NCBI GenBank assembly: GCA_963921795.1
Contig: OY997653.1
Span: 23,298,658 to 23,362,657 of the forward strand
DNA length: 64,000 bases
Direction of reading: 5' to 3'
Source: Nannobrachium achirus
Taxonomy: Eukaryota > Chordata > Actinopteri > Myctophiformes > Myctophidae
Shown: piece by piece, positions 22,274 to 56,102 of the stretch
Layout of the letters: every line of letters starts with the position of its first letter
How positions within the stretch are numbered: the stretch's first letter is position 1
Program-made: the position numbers and the translations under genes
The notes under the pieces: model-generated
The model's input: the letters and a program-made list of their open reading frames with translations, nothing else
Told to the model about the DNA's origin: nothing
Database searches by the model: none

Positions 22274-22447
22274 CGGGCAGAGAAAGACAAAGAGTTTGAG
22301 TCGTTTGTGGTGAAGATCCAGAAGCTGGAGCTGCTGTGCCGGGCCCTGCAGGAGGAGAGGAAGGCCCTGTACGACAAGATCAAGGACGTCCGCAGCGCCA
22401 ACACCCAGTCTGGCCTCGCCTTCCACGCCAACATGACCCTGCCCGAG
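22274..22447 (+). CDS. txlnb: txlnb coding exon 11
   Basis: 58 codons, beginning RAEKDKEFESFVVKIQKLEL and including LCRALQEERK, the end of the taxilin coiled coil. The acceptor is CCGCAG and the donor CCCGAG|GTAGGG; phase 0 on both sides. The donor is built from one G of the target duplication plus the first bases of a hAT MITE that forms the whole next intron. Confidence 0.95.
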
Positions 22448-22448
22448 G

Positions 22449-22644
22449 TAGGGATGGGACCAAGTGAAAATGTCATATCACGATTATTGTGACAAAATAA
22501 ATCGTTATTCACTATTTTATCGCGATAATTTAAATCCATTATCCTGGGGCGGAACATTTGCCACGTCAAATCTCCCACGATACGATTATTGTGAGTGTTT
22601 TTATCACGATAAGGATAAACCATAATATCGATGTCCCATCCCTA
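22449..22644 (-). mobile_element. hAT MITE (TAGGGATGGGAC family) that constitutes the entire txlnb intron 22448-22645
   Basis: 196-bp element with terminal repeats TAGGGATGGGAC at the left and GTCCCATCCCTA at the right. It is an internally deleted, reversed copy of the elements at 30505 and 61598, with the same end blocks containing CACGATTATTGTGACA and the segment complementary to CGCCCCAGGATAATGG. Flanks are GCCCGAGG (22441-22448) and GTCCGAGG (22645-22652), a 7/8 target duplication typical of hAT. Intron GT is target G plus element T; intron AG is element A plus target G. Without splicing the frame reaches a stop inside the element. Confidence 0.92.
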
Positions 22645-22645
22645 G

Positions 22646-23332
22646 TCCGAGGAGCAGGTGGTTGTCCCGGCGGATGCTGCTGCCGCTCCCGGCTCTGGCC
22701 TCCTGACCACCGTGGAGATCCAGGAGATGACGGAACAAGACCCGGTCCTGACCCAGGGCATGAGCCGCCTGAAGGAGGAGCAGGCAAGGCTGGCGGAGTT
22801 CGCGGCCAGCCTGTTGTCCCCCTCCTCGGACACAGAAGAAGACAAAGACGACGACAGCGACGGGGCCGAGGACGAAGAGGAGGACGCGCTGACCTCGGCG
22901 TTCGCCGCGGTCACAAAGCAAAGCCAGAAGAAAGCCACAGAGGAAGAGAAGGTAGAAGCCAAGCCAGACGCAGAACCGCGGAAGGCCGAAGAAGTGGCCG
23001 TGGTGGCCGAAGTGGCCGTGGTGGCCGAGCCCGCGTCAAAGACGGAGGAAGCAGAGGAGACCCGCAAGGAGGCGACCGAACCTCCGCTGGCAGCACCAGA
23101 ACATGAAGAGAAGCCCACTGAATCAGATGTGGTCACAGCACTATTGAAGGAAGCAAGTCTAGCCATGGAGTCAACATATTCCAGACCTAAACCAAAGGAG
23201 GTCAAGGAGCCCACACCAACAGCACCAGTACCAGTACCAGAAGAGAACAAGCAACTGGCCCCTGAACCACTGTCAGCGCCCACGAAGGAGGAGTCCAACC
23301 CACCAGCAGAGTCCAAACCTGCAGAGGAAACG
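22646..23332 (+). CDS. txlnb: txlnb coding exon 12 (acidic tail)
   Basis: 229 codons in frame with exon 11, beginning SEEQVVVPADAAAAPG. The tail has an acidic block (DTEEDKDDDSDGAEDEEEDA, residues about 65-90 of the exon), Ala/Val/Glu repeats such as VAVVAEVAVVAEPA, and Pro/Glu-rich stretches. It is predicted to be disordered. The donor is ACG|GTAGGG. Beta-taxilins are known to have long, poorly conserved C-terminal tails, so homology here is weak while the open frame is strong. Confidence 0.88.
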
Positions 23333-23384
23333 GTAGGGCATAATGGGACATATGGGACAACTTCTGATTAAATCTGTTTAAATT

Positions 23385-23629
23385 TGGTTCCCAAACTTTG
23401 TGACCCAAAAGAGAGATTAGCATTTGGCCGGGACTCAAACAAGTGAAAATCGCGGATCTACAAGTACATGTAGTGCGGCTATTTTCACAATTTCTTAAAA
23501 CAATTGTTTTCTAATTTATGGAATTTCTTTGATTTGTTTTATTTTTAATTTACTGTAGCAGTTACAGCAGGTAACAAAAAGTTAAGGGACCCATAAAAAT
23601 GGGTCCCGACCCAGTGTTTGGGAAGCAGT
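23385..23629 (+). mobile_element. hAT-Charlie-like MITE in the last txlnb intron
   Basis: Ends GGTTCCCAAACTTTGTGACC and GACCCAGTGTTTGGGAAGC, with a short palindromic module in the middle (about 23446-23490). Related fragments lie at about 13106-13190 and 44732-44800. Confidence 0.75.
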
Positions 23630-23787
23630 GCTGTAAATCATAGGCTTCCGTCGGTCAGGGTTGACCATCGTTCACGCATCACGCATTCAAAACTAGATTA
23701 TTACAGTAGAGAGGAAAGCCTCTCTGCTGTACAAAGGTAAAGTTAATGTCATACAAGTATCCTTGTATTTGTTGATGGGGTGGGAAT

Positions 23788-24446
23788 TTAAAGGATTACT
23801 TCACCACTTTTCAACCTATTTTCAACCTATCTTATTGGGGCTGTTAAGTATGACATCATTTTGTAGGCAGAGGAGAATTTCTGCCCCCAGTTTCCGTGAA
23901 TCTTTTTACTATTTTTACTATTTACACATTTTTCTTCTCTTTGTTATTGAAAGGAAAGTGTTAGAATGATACTTTAGTCGTTATTTTTTAGTCGTTGCTT
24001 TTTGAAATAGCGAGGGACAGAAAATGCTCTGGGGGCAGATTCTCCTCTGCCTACAAAATGATGTCACAGCTTAAAAGCCCCATAGGTCCTCACTTCATAA
24101 TAAAATTGCAAAAAAGAAATCTACTCGGTCCAAGTCTCTTAGGAGAGCTGTGGGAAGTTCAGAAATCCATAGTCTTGTGAAATCATCAATGGGGAATCCA
24201 AGCTAATAGAAAATGCAGGCTTTCTATTCCTGAAAAGTTGCAATGTTAAAGTGGAAGCTATTATTCTCGTGATAATAATAATCAAAAATATTGTTTAAAA
24301 AATAAATCTGTCAAACGATGATGTCACAAGACTATGTACAGTATTTCTGAACTTCCCACAGCTCTCCTAAGAGACTTGGATCGAGTAGATATATATATAT
24401 TTTTTTTTTTCTTTTTGCAATTTTATTATGAACATTAGTTTACCAG
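23788..24446. mobile_element. long-TIR element related to 16091 copy, last txlnb intron
   Basis: Begins TTAAAGGATTACTTCACCAC. A nested fold-back has matching arms around ATCTACTCGGTCCAAGTCTC (about 24117) and GAGACTTGGATCGAGTAGAT (about 24371). Confidence 0.7.
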
Positions 24447-24673
24447 GGTGGACTTATCCACTCCCTCCAGGTCCGAAGTAACAACACAAATCTGCTCCAC
24501 TGAATGCTGGGCGCTAGGGCAGATTTAGCTGTTCAAACACCCCTTTTTCCAAAATGTATAAAACATATTTATGGTTTATGAGAATGCCAATGTATAAGTA
24601 CAGCTTGTTTTTCAACACATTGTTTGGATATCCAGATATTTAAAAATAATCCATTTGCCCTTCTTTTTCAAAG

Positions 24674-24946
24674 GTTCAAGCTGAAGTGATGGAAATCGAG
24701 CAGCCCACACCAGCGGCAGCACCAGTACAAGAAGAGACGACCCAGCAGGACCGGTGTGCCGAACCAGTACAACCAGTACAACCTGTACAACAAGAAGAAG
24801 CGATCCCTGTCCAGCCAGAAGCTGGATGTGGTCCCTCTGAAGACGCCACTGCCTCCACGACATCGCACGCAGACAGAGCCAACAACAACAGCAACCCTCA
24901 GCAGCCAATGAGGAAGAAGAAGAAGAGGAACAATAAGAAAGTGTAG
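24674..24946 (+). CDS. txlnb: txlnb last coding exon with stop TAG at 24944
   Basis: 90 codons plus stop in phase with exon 12. The acceptor is TTTCAAAG at 24666-24673. It opens VQAEVMEIEQPTPAAAP, contains EEAIPVQPEAG and ends in the basic KKKKRNNKKV. PVQPVQPVQ shows a short internal repeat. The low complexity makes family matching weak; the assignment rests on frame, splice site and closeness to exon 12. Confidence 0.8.
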   Translation, partial: VQAEVMEIEQPTPAAAPVQEETTQQDRCAEPVQPVQPVQQEEAIPVQPEAGCGPSEDATASTTSHADRANNNSNPQQPMRKKKKRNNKKV

Positions 24947-54150: not shown

Positions 54151-54827
54151 ATGACAAATTTCTCCTGGGGCGCCCGCTGGCCTACTGGTCCAGGCGCATA
54201 CAGTTAAAGGACAGCTCACAGGTTGAAGCAGCGAGGCAAGTTTTGAGCTTGTACATCTGCTATTCTTTCTCTGTTATTATAACTTAACCTCGCATCACCA
54301 TGTCTTTCCACCTCGGAGGAAAGCCTGGTATTTGGAGGAAAGCCTGGTATTAGTTTACAATGGGTGGCCTAACCCGGCAACATCAGGCAGAAGAAAGCGG
54401 CATCACTGTGTTTTGGTCCCCATTGTTTGTTTCCCCATTTAAATGCTCGAGTAGTGTAGTCTTGCCAGTCGCTACGAGTTGGACTAGAAGATGCATATAC
54501 CAAACAAACCTATTCCAAAAATAAGCTAAATAGGCCCCATCAAGGGGTTTATTGGGTAGGACATAAAATTATGCCCCTGAGCATGGGGAATTATTTTGGT
54601 TAAAACCGTTTCGTAGTCTGTGAAGACTACAACATGAAGAAGGTTGTTTCAGCTTTTTTACCGGTTGAAAATGTGTAAAAGCGACTAACACATTAGAAGG
54701 GTCAGCTTGGTGGCCCGATTTGGGTATTTCATCATAAGCATTAATCAACAATGGTCAAAATATCCGATATAAAAGCTCACAAGGTGTCATGATGAGCTTT
54801 GGATTATGCCCCTGGGAGGTGTAATAT

Positions 54828-55010
54828 TTGGGCTTCAACTTTGACCAAATATGGAGATTCTATGACTGCACACTAAGTGACATCATAGTACTGGCCTCCT
54901 ATATACGTAAAAGGTGTCATGTAAAAGGTGTCATCAATAAGACTGTCTTACAGAGCAAGCTGCTAAAGGTATTGTTTCGAACGGTGTTTTTGCTGATCGT
55001 CTGTCAAATA
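54828..55010 (+). other. in-frame 5' extension of the kelch retrogene frame
   Basis: Sixty-one open codons before the KLHDC3-like start. They include a hydrophobic run (LKVLFRTVFLLIVCQI) that could be read as a membrane segment but has no family counterpart. The segment also contains a perfect CArG box (54845-54854) and a TATA-like CTATATAC near 54898, so it may be promoter or 5' UTR instead of coding sequence. Confidence 0.35.
54845..54854 (+). promoter_or_regulatory. perfect CArG box CCAAATATGG upstream of the kelch retrogene
   Basis: It matches CC(A/T)6GG exactly, 157 bp before the preferred ATG, and is followed by TGACATCA (near 54878) as in the CArG repeat units. A TATA-like CTATATAC follows near 54898. 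The regulatory role is inferred. Confidence 0.45.
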
Positions 55011-56102
55011 ATGCACTGTACAGTGAAGCTGCGAGGAGCCCCAACTATCGACAGTGTTGTTGTATCAGTGGGACACAAAGTGTACGCATTTGGAGATTGT
55101 GGTTGGGATTGGGATTACGCTGGGAAATTTATAGAAGATCAGATCAATGTGTACGTCTTCGACACAGTGTCTCTGAGATGGAGGACGTTGCCCCAAGGGA
55201 CAACTACAACAGGAGAACGACCCCCTGAGGTTCCCTGTAGGCGCCGTGGCCACACAGCTGTGCTCATTGAAGACATCGTCTACTACTGGGGAGGAATCAA
55301 TGATAATTATAAGCTTTGCAAAAACATTCTTTACGCATTTGATGTCGCCGGCCACAGTTGGATCATGACTAAGGTTTCTGGGACCGTTCCAAAGGGGAGA
55401 CAGGGCCACTCAGCCTGTGTCTTGGGGAAAGTCATGTATGTCTATGGAGGATCGAAGATATCCACTAATGACATCTACAAGCTGGACACCACCACGATGC
55501 TCTGGTCTTTAATTAACACCAGAGGCACTCTGCCTCCTGTTCCGTCAGGTCACTTTGCCACCATCATCGGGACAAAGATGCTTGTATATGAGGCAGGGGG
55601 CCGGAGAATCCTCAACAACAACAACAACAACAACAACATCAGAGTGTTTGACACTGAGAGCAACTGCTGGCTGGACATTCCTTCTGCAAAGCATCTTCCA
55701 GGAGAACGCAGGAGTCATTCAGCCTTTGCCTACAATGGAGAGTTGTACATATTTGGTGGTAATGTGAACAAGAACATATTTCGGTTGAGTAACTCTGCAC
55801 CAGAACACTGCAACGACATGTGGAAATTCAGTCCAGAGACCTTCTCCTGGAAGGAGGTTGAGCTGAAGGAGAATGACCCGTTCCGGATGAATGACGCCTG
55901 CTGTTGCATGGTGGTAAGCCGTGTCGTCATCTTTGGAGGTTTTAAAGGAGAAGACCACAAACCCAACGTTGACCTGTACATCCTAGACTTGAATCCTAGT
56001 CTCAAGACGCTATGCAAGCTAGCGGTTATTCAGTACGATCTGGAGCAGTCAGAACTCGCACACAACATCAGGTGGGAACTGGCAGCCATGACTGATGATT
56101 GA
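55011..56102 (+). CDS. intronless KLHDC3-like kelch protein (retrogene)
   Basis: An uninterrupted frame of 363 residues from MHCTVKLRGAP to AAMTDD. It follows KLHDC3 from end to end (KLHDC3 is about 382 residues): VGHKVYAFG, VSLRWRTLP, RGHTAVLIEDIVYYWGG, YAFDV, VSGTVPKGRQGHSACVLGK, SHSAFAYNGELYIFGG and SLKTLCKLAVIQYDLEQS. The parent gene is known to have many introns, so this is a processed copy. The kelch GG and YxF/W pattern repeats about six times. The C-terminal SLKTLCKLAVI corresponds to the segment by which KLHDC3 joins elongin B/C and CUL2, so E3-receptor function could be kept. Odd features: eight Asn in a row from (AAC)n, and several altered kelch glycines (AFGDCG, YEAGGR). The open frame continues upstream to an ATG at 54828, adding 61 residues with no KLHDC3 match; I prefer 55011. 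An unbroken frame of this length suggests selection. Confidence 0.85.
   Translation: MHCTVKLRGAPTIDSVVVSVGHKVYAFGDCGWDWDYAGKFIEDQINVYVFDTVSLRWRTLPQGTTTTGERPPEVPCRRRGHTAVLIEDIVYYWGGINDNYKLCKNILYAFDVAGHSWIMTKVSGTVPKGRQGHSACVLGKVMYVYGGSKISTNDIYKLDTTTMLWSLINTRGTLPPVPSGHFATIIGTKMLVYEAGGRRILNNNNNNNNIRVFDTESNCWLDIPSAKHLPGERRSHSAFAYNGELYIFGGNVNKNIFRLSNSAPEHCNDMWKFSPETFSWKEVELKENDPFRMNDACCCMVVSRVVIFGGFKGEDHKPNVDLYILDLNPSLKTLCKLAVIQYDLEQSELAHNIRWELAAMTDD

Follow-up and report, generated by a model that had tools for sequence, protein, structure and literature searches.

A predicted MITE-derived intron in a taxilin gene of the fish Nannobrachium achirus and a second candidate from the same hAT-type family

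We analyzed a 64,000-nucleotide stretch of the Nannobrachium achirus genome (contig OY997653.1; hereafter, the window) and identified a predicted 198-bp coding intron in a taxilin gene that was very probably created by the insertion of a hAT-type MITE. The interval consists of a G, a 196-bp element, and a G; it starts with GT, ends with AG, and lies in phase 0. Copies of the same family form GT-AG intervals, at the sequence level, in coding exons of two unrelated genes. Because the second gene has the same arrangement, one vertebrate transposon family seems able to make introns. We lean toward regarding this hAT MITE family as a low-rate introner, with introns in at least two unrelated genes and probably in more, some of them internally shortened.

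The coordinates of the features are summarized in Table 1. The composition and boundaries of the intron agreed at every position with those proposed in the initial annotation. The terminal inverted repeats (TIRs) TAGGGATGGGAC and GTCCCATCCCTA match at 12 of 12 positions, which confirmed that the family ends are inverted repeats. The flanks GCCCGAGG and GTCCGAGG agree at seven of eight positions and extend across both exon junctions, as had been described for the target duplication. GT and AG are each composed of one TIR base and one target G, also as described. Once the element is removed, the frame CTG CCC GAG / TCC GAG GAG (slash, junction) is open, and it remains open for 687 nt up to the next donor, from where it joins in frame with the last exon in phase 0. 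When the taxilin frame is left unspliced, a stop occurs 14 codons inside the element.

Table 1 Features of the taxilin gene in the window and location of the second candidate.
Feature	Position	Strand	Remarks
Coding exon 5' of the new intron	22274..22447	+	End of the taxilin coiled coil; phase 0; ends CTGCCCGAG; open frame; homologous to the C20 paralogue; PF09728 over cut-off when joined with upstream exons
Left copy of target duplication, GCCCGAGG	22441..22448	+	Final G is intron base 1 (donor G)
Intron (predicted)	22448..22645	+	198 bp; GT...AG; G + element + G; in-frame stop when unspliced
Internally deleted hAT-type MITE	22449..22644	.	196 bp
Left TIR, TAGGGATGGGAC	22449..22460	+	Initial T completes donor GT
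Candidate branch-point region, GATAAACCATAAT	22614..22626	+	19-31 nt upstream of the acceptor; placed from the branch-point consensus
Right TIR, GTCCCATCCCTA	22633..22644	+	Pyrimidine-rich tract and A of acceptor AG
Right copy of target duplication, GTCCGAGG	22645..22652	+	Initial G completes acceptor AG
Coding exon 3' of the new intron	22646..23332	+	229 codons; open frame; first part homologous to the C20 terminal exon
Last coding exon	24674..24946	+	In frame; 90 codons; ends ...KKKKRNNKKV stop
Second candidate, L060	C6:56421621-56424763		Element at L060:1502-1642

We scored the splice signals using general position frequencies. The donor GAGGTAGGG had a score of 7.8, within the span of 6.5-11.2 seen in six other donors of this gene, and ranked in the 99th percentile among all GT dinucleotides in the window. 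The acceptor tract is 62% pyrimidine (52-86% for the six other acceptors of the gene), and the pyrimidine-rich stretch attributed to the right TIR was present. With its GT-AG boundaries and the open frame over the junction, the 198-bp interval is predicted to be spliced.

The exon on the 3' side of the 198-bp intron stops at 23332, and the next donor is at 23333. The next intron of the gene (23333-24673) starts with GTAGGGCATAATGGGAC, which resembles the TIR with four extra bases, and its 3' end has no TIR. This intron has no counterpart in the terminal exon of the C20 paralogue. A transposon origin of intron 23333-24673 was not supported; the TIR-like sequence is present at one end only.

The upstream exons of the element-bearing gene matched the taxilin family (PF09728) in a Pfam profile search with an E-value of 1.2e-57, and a PDB search gave no taxilin match. 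The domain families alone were tested; the name txlnb for this gene comes from the initial annotation, and both it and the name igfn1 for the second gene are presumed here. Four further taxilin loci were retrieved from this genome, and of these the C20 paralogue was the closest (66.6 bits versus 30-36 for the rest). Its terminal exon spans both sides of the intron site, with 46 of 127 residues identical and one gap (E 2e-16), and is uninterrupted, with an open frame of 192 aa. The taxilin family has further copies in this genome. A tandem array of approximately 10 similar taxilin gene units lies at C10:53.49-53.90 Mb (ten matches, profile positions 210-243), and two copies at C22:20265259-20267488 have single open frames of 550 and 283 codons that include the domain in large part or entirely; the latter are perhaps intronless retrogenes. 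Elsewhere in the window, positions 54825-56099 (+) form a single 425-codon open frame, the first 120 residues of which weakly matched Kelch_2 below the cut-off (E 0.021), and this frame may possibly be a retrocopy of a kelch gene.

We next describe the element family. Across the genome, both 12-bp ends are found together without mismatch 1823 times at a gap of 330-390 bases, and 68 exact-ended copies of 141-438 bp were collected. An 8-bp duplication was perfect in 31 of the 58 G-flanked copies and matched at seven or more positions in 46 of them, the window copy included. The 8-bp duplications in the sampled copies, the short TIRs, the short length, and the high copy number characterize the family as a hAT MITE, as initially classified. 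Its end letters appear similar to those of Ac/Ds. The ends of the window copy are not a product of chance, because the same exact pair recurs 1823 times and sampled copies show duplications; the 12/12 TIR match and the flush exon junctions likewise ruled this out.

The window copy was compared with longer copies of approximately 357-429 bp. Over the 115 bp of its left arm, identity with other copies reached 92%, and its right arm matched more poorly. The copy is internally deleted, with approximately 200 bp missing between the arms, and no second 198-bp copy was found among the 40 candidates scored out of 2379. In the left arm, 11 of 114 sites differ from the family consensus. Its divergence over both arms was approximately 7% in a local alignment, which is an underestimate, and 27/191 in an alignment where the right arm fitted badly. 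Sixteen longer copies were 4-18% from the consensus.

G flanked the element on both sides, on either strand, in 423 of the 1823 copies with a gap of 330-390, or approximately 12% per given strand. This is about twice the 1 in 16 per strand and suggests a target preference that favors splice-ready insertions.

A second candidate was obtained by scanning 27 copies for an open frame over the empty site; a genome search for other introns bounded by the same ends had been suggested in the initial annotation. This copy (L060), located on another contig, is 141 bp long and forms a GT-AG interval at C6:56423121-56423263, where it interrupts a coding exon that belongs to an Ig/FN3 (igfn1-like) gene. 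The target duplication matches at six of eight positions (GGTGAGGG / GATGAAGG). When unspliced, the frame has a stop inside the element; when spliced, it is open from the exon acceptor to the apparent donor in phase 1. The host exon is rich in Lys, Glu, and Ala, and its coding status rests on the open frame and on homology with a paralogue. The neighboring exons matched Ig I-set and fn3 in Pfam, and the exon directly after the element-bearing exon had no Pfam match alone. Related genes lie in tandem nearby. In one of these igfn1-like paralogues, the homologous exon is intronless and its frame continues for at least 333 codons, up to where the retrieved sequence stops. The alignment between the two exons (41%, E 8e-35) was made with the low-complexity filter off and is largely of low complexity.

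Two donors can be proposed for this candidate. The first is composed of the duplication G and the element T, adds 6 nt, and scored 6.4; the second, GTGAGG within the duplication, scored 11.1 and gives a message identical to that of a reconstructed empty site in which the right copy of the target is kept. The corresponding junctions on C6 are 56423120/56423264 and 56423114/56423264. Use of the GTGAGG donor would mean an exact (zero-length) intron gain, and both alternative donors are in frame. The arithmetic by which TA...TA ends and G flanks yield GT and AG with a gain of 6 nt holds in the sequence at both loci.

We surveyed 58 splice-ready (G-flanked) copies with approximately 200 bases or more of flank per side, so that long exons were only partly visible. 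These copies were picked by pattern and length and are not a random sample. The search was confined to copies with unchanged ends and to gaps other than 151-164 and less than 90 bases. Longer splice-ready copies numbered 423, 108, and 60 in three partly overlapping counts, of which the last two were partly sampled and the first was counted only. Two of the 58 copies, the window copy among them, resemble coding introns, and the other 56 have no recognizable coding exon around them; the family is thus not evidently aimed at exons. Among the 57 G-flanked copies other than the window copy, a convincing spliced coding frame was found in L060 only. The next longest spliced frames were those of L057 (393 nt), L048 (384 nt), L074 (381 nt), and L058 (363 nt); the last three were dropped by eye as low-complexity or without recognizable protein. 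L057, L087, and L104 had no Pfam match. L003 and L008, which are not G-flanked, had empty-site frames of 1107 and 807 nt; these frames cross CA/TG simple repeats and were discarded on visual inspection.

The two putative coding introns are both formed by short copies with internal deletions, with two among the seven splice-ready copies under 200 bp and none among the 51 longer ones. The contrast is weak, as it falls to one of six when the window copy is left out. It gives a hint that exonic copies lose sequence once inserted, or else that exons tolerate short copies only.

The taxilin interval could be read in other ways. The element may lie in an exon that is unspliced or poorly spliced, giving a truncated protein ending ...LPEVGMGPSENVISRLL with the downstream frame as a remnant. 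The moderate donor and acceptor and the stop 14 codons into the element are compatible with this. We simulated neutral decay of the 687-nt exon. With substitutions alone, the exon was open in 49%, 34%, and 25% of simulations at 4%, 6%, and 8% divergence, respectively, so that at 6-8% between one quarter and one third remained open. When indels were added at an assumed rate of one per ten substitutions, 80% of them frame-shifting, the corresponding values were 5.4%, 1.3%, and 0.35%. The 229-codon and 90-codon exons are both intact and joined in frame, whereas with substitutions and assumed indels such exon pairs survived in 0 of 4000 simulations at 8% and in 0.18% at 6%. This argument depends on the indels that were assumed, the divergence used in it includes differences that predate the insertion, and the non-decayed downstream frame gives moderate, not strong, support for splicing of the taxilin intron. 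The C20 paralogue, which retains homologous sequence beyond the insertion point, and L060, which repeats the splice-ready arrangement, also argue against a truncated product, and we regard this reading as unlikely.

Replacement or filling of an older intron at the same position by the MITE is far less probable still. MITEs are often found in introns, which counts in its favor, and the single paralogue examined is compatible with loss of an intron in C20. However, the two exons are separated only by the element and one G per side, and each copy of the duplication is made of exon sequence; this arrangement indicates an insertion into an uninterrupted exon. The C20 paralogue lacks an intron there, although with a single gene copy compared, loss in C20 is formally possible. 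The uninterrupted C20 exon and the same arrangement in the second gene support the original proposal that the insertion was into an exon and not into an older intron. Finally, the insertion could be an allele that is segregating or recent in the individual sequenced and not a fixed intron, which would be compatible with a transposon-born intron. One assembly was sampled, as such an allele would allow. The window copy, however, departs from the consensus at the left-arm sites given above and has one mismatch in its duplication, which together suggest that it is probably not very young, and a genome protein search with the spliced taxilin exon gave no second, empty copy of the locus. We consider a segregating or recent allele improbable.

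The origin of the taxilin intron from the MITE can be outlined as follows. Before the insertion, the 3'-terminal taxilin coding exon would have been uninterrupted and would have read CTGCCCGAGGAG. A non-autonomous hAT-type element with the TIR TAGGGATGGGAC would have inserted at a target with G as its first and last base. Duplication of the 8-bp target would then have placed a G outside each element end (G/T on the left, A/G on the right), and the right element end would also have supplied the pyrimidine-rich run. The spliceosome would remove the element as a 198-bp phase-0 intron, and the insertion would have become fixed. The mature message would gain 8 − 2 = 6 nt, or two codons, with the frame kept. 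Since the 8-bp duplication minus the two splice bases always leaves 6 nt, the frame survives in any phase. The six extra bases and the surviving frame had been noted initially, and the frame open for 687 nt past the junction is in accord with them.

Maize Ds elements were reportedly described by Giroux in 1994 as being spliced as introns. In that plant the elements lie in mutant alleles, whereas the present case concerns how a gene is built in the reference genome of a vertebrate. As in maize Ds1 (approximately 400 bp), a short hAT element with 8-bp duplications is removed from pre-mRNA, the removal being predicted here. Maize Ac/Ds has an 11-bp TIR and an 8-bp target site duplication (TSD), and a title cited there concerns Ds1 acting as an intron in Adh1-Fm335 (PMC3260210).

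Introners are DNA-transposon copies that make introns, with splice sites derived partly from the target duplication (Gozashti et al. 2022, PMC9860276). The family described here resembles them in that transposon copies would serve as introns, splice sites would be partly target-derived, and codons would be added on insertion; in Aureococcus, introners add 12 bp, of which 8 are from the TSD (PMC9860276). The surveyed introner families contain from 5 to more than 2,000 introns and are reported from two animal groups only, with no vertebrate pattern of gain (PMC9860276). Compared with these families of at least five introns, the present family gave two candidate introns in the 58 copies that we examined within a single genome, where several hundred further splice-ready copies were counted. 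Introns made by transposons in Oryza, Drosophila, Oikopleura, and Zea are listed in a 2012 review (PMC3443670), and an earlier paper considered intron gains in fish that show TE remnants (PMC3151243).

Vertebrate intron gain has been described as rare, and Torii et al. (2025) reported a transposon-born intron 3 in notothenioid slc26a2 with gt-ag in direct and inverted repeats (PMC12357937). Because that intron is already published, the taxilin intron is not the first vertebrate case, and the initial suggestion that such a case would be new is weakened. Both cases involve a fish, a coding exon, an element with inverted ends, and gt-ag within direct and inverted repeats. In slc26a2, the ends of the element NTE-1 are tgt...aca, its direct repeats measure 4 nt, and a second element subsequently extended it (PMC12357937). 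The present family differs from NTE-1 in its ends, its 8-bp duplication, the element alone constituting the intron, and its occurrence in two unrelated genes. In titles and abstracts among the matches listed, mostly from non-subscription journals, we found no vertebrate coding intron formed by a hAT MITE. The sequence evidence gives good support for regarding the taxilin intron as a new vertebrate instance of a known process, in which the second gene with the same family would be the new component.

The mechanism of intron gain is seldom visible, and here the element, its ends, and its target duplication are still readable twice in one genome. A sense-strand G...G target suffices for both splice dinucleotides and for retention of the frame, and the gain of 6 nt provides a testable reason why TA-ended hAT elements could be tolerated in exons. 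With a second gene carrying the same family, an introner-like hAT family in fish becomes a testable claim. Since 423 of the 1823 intact-ended copies are G-flanked, the frequency with which an exonic insertion becomes an intron can be counted in one species.
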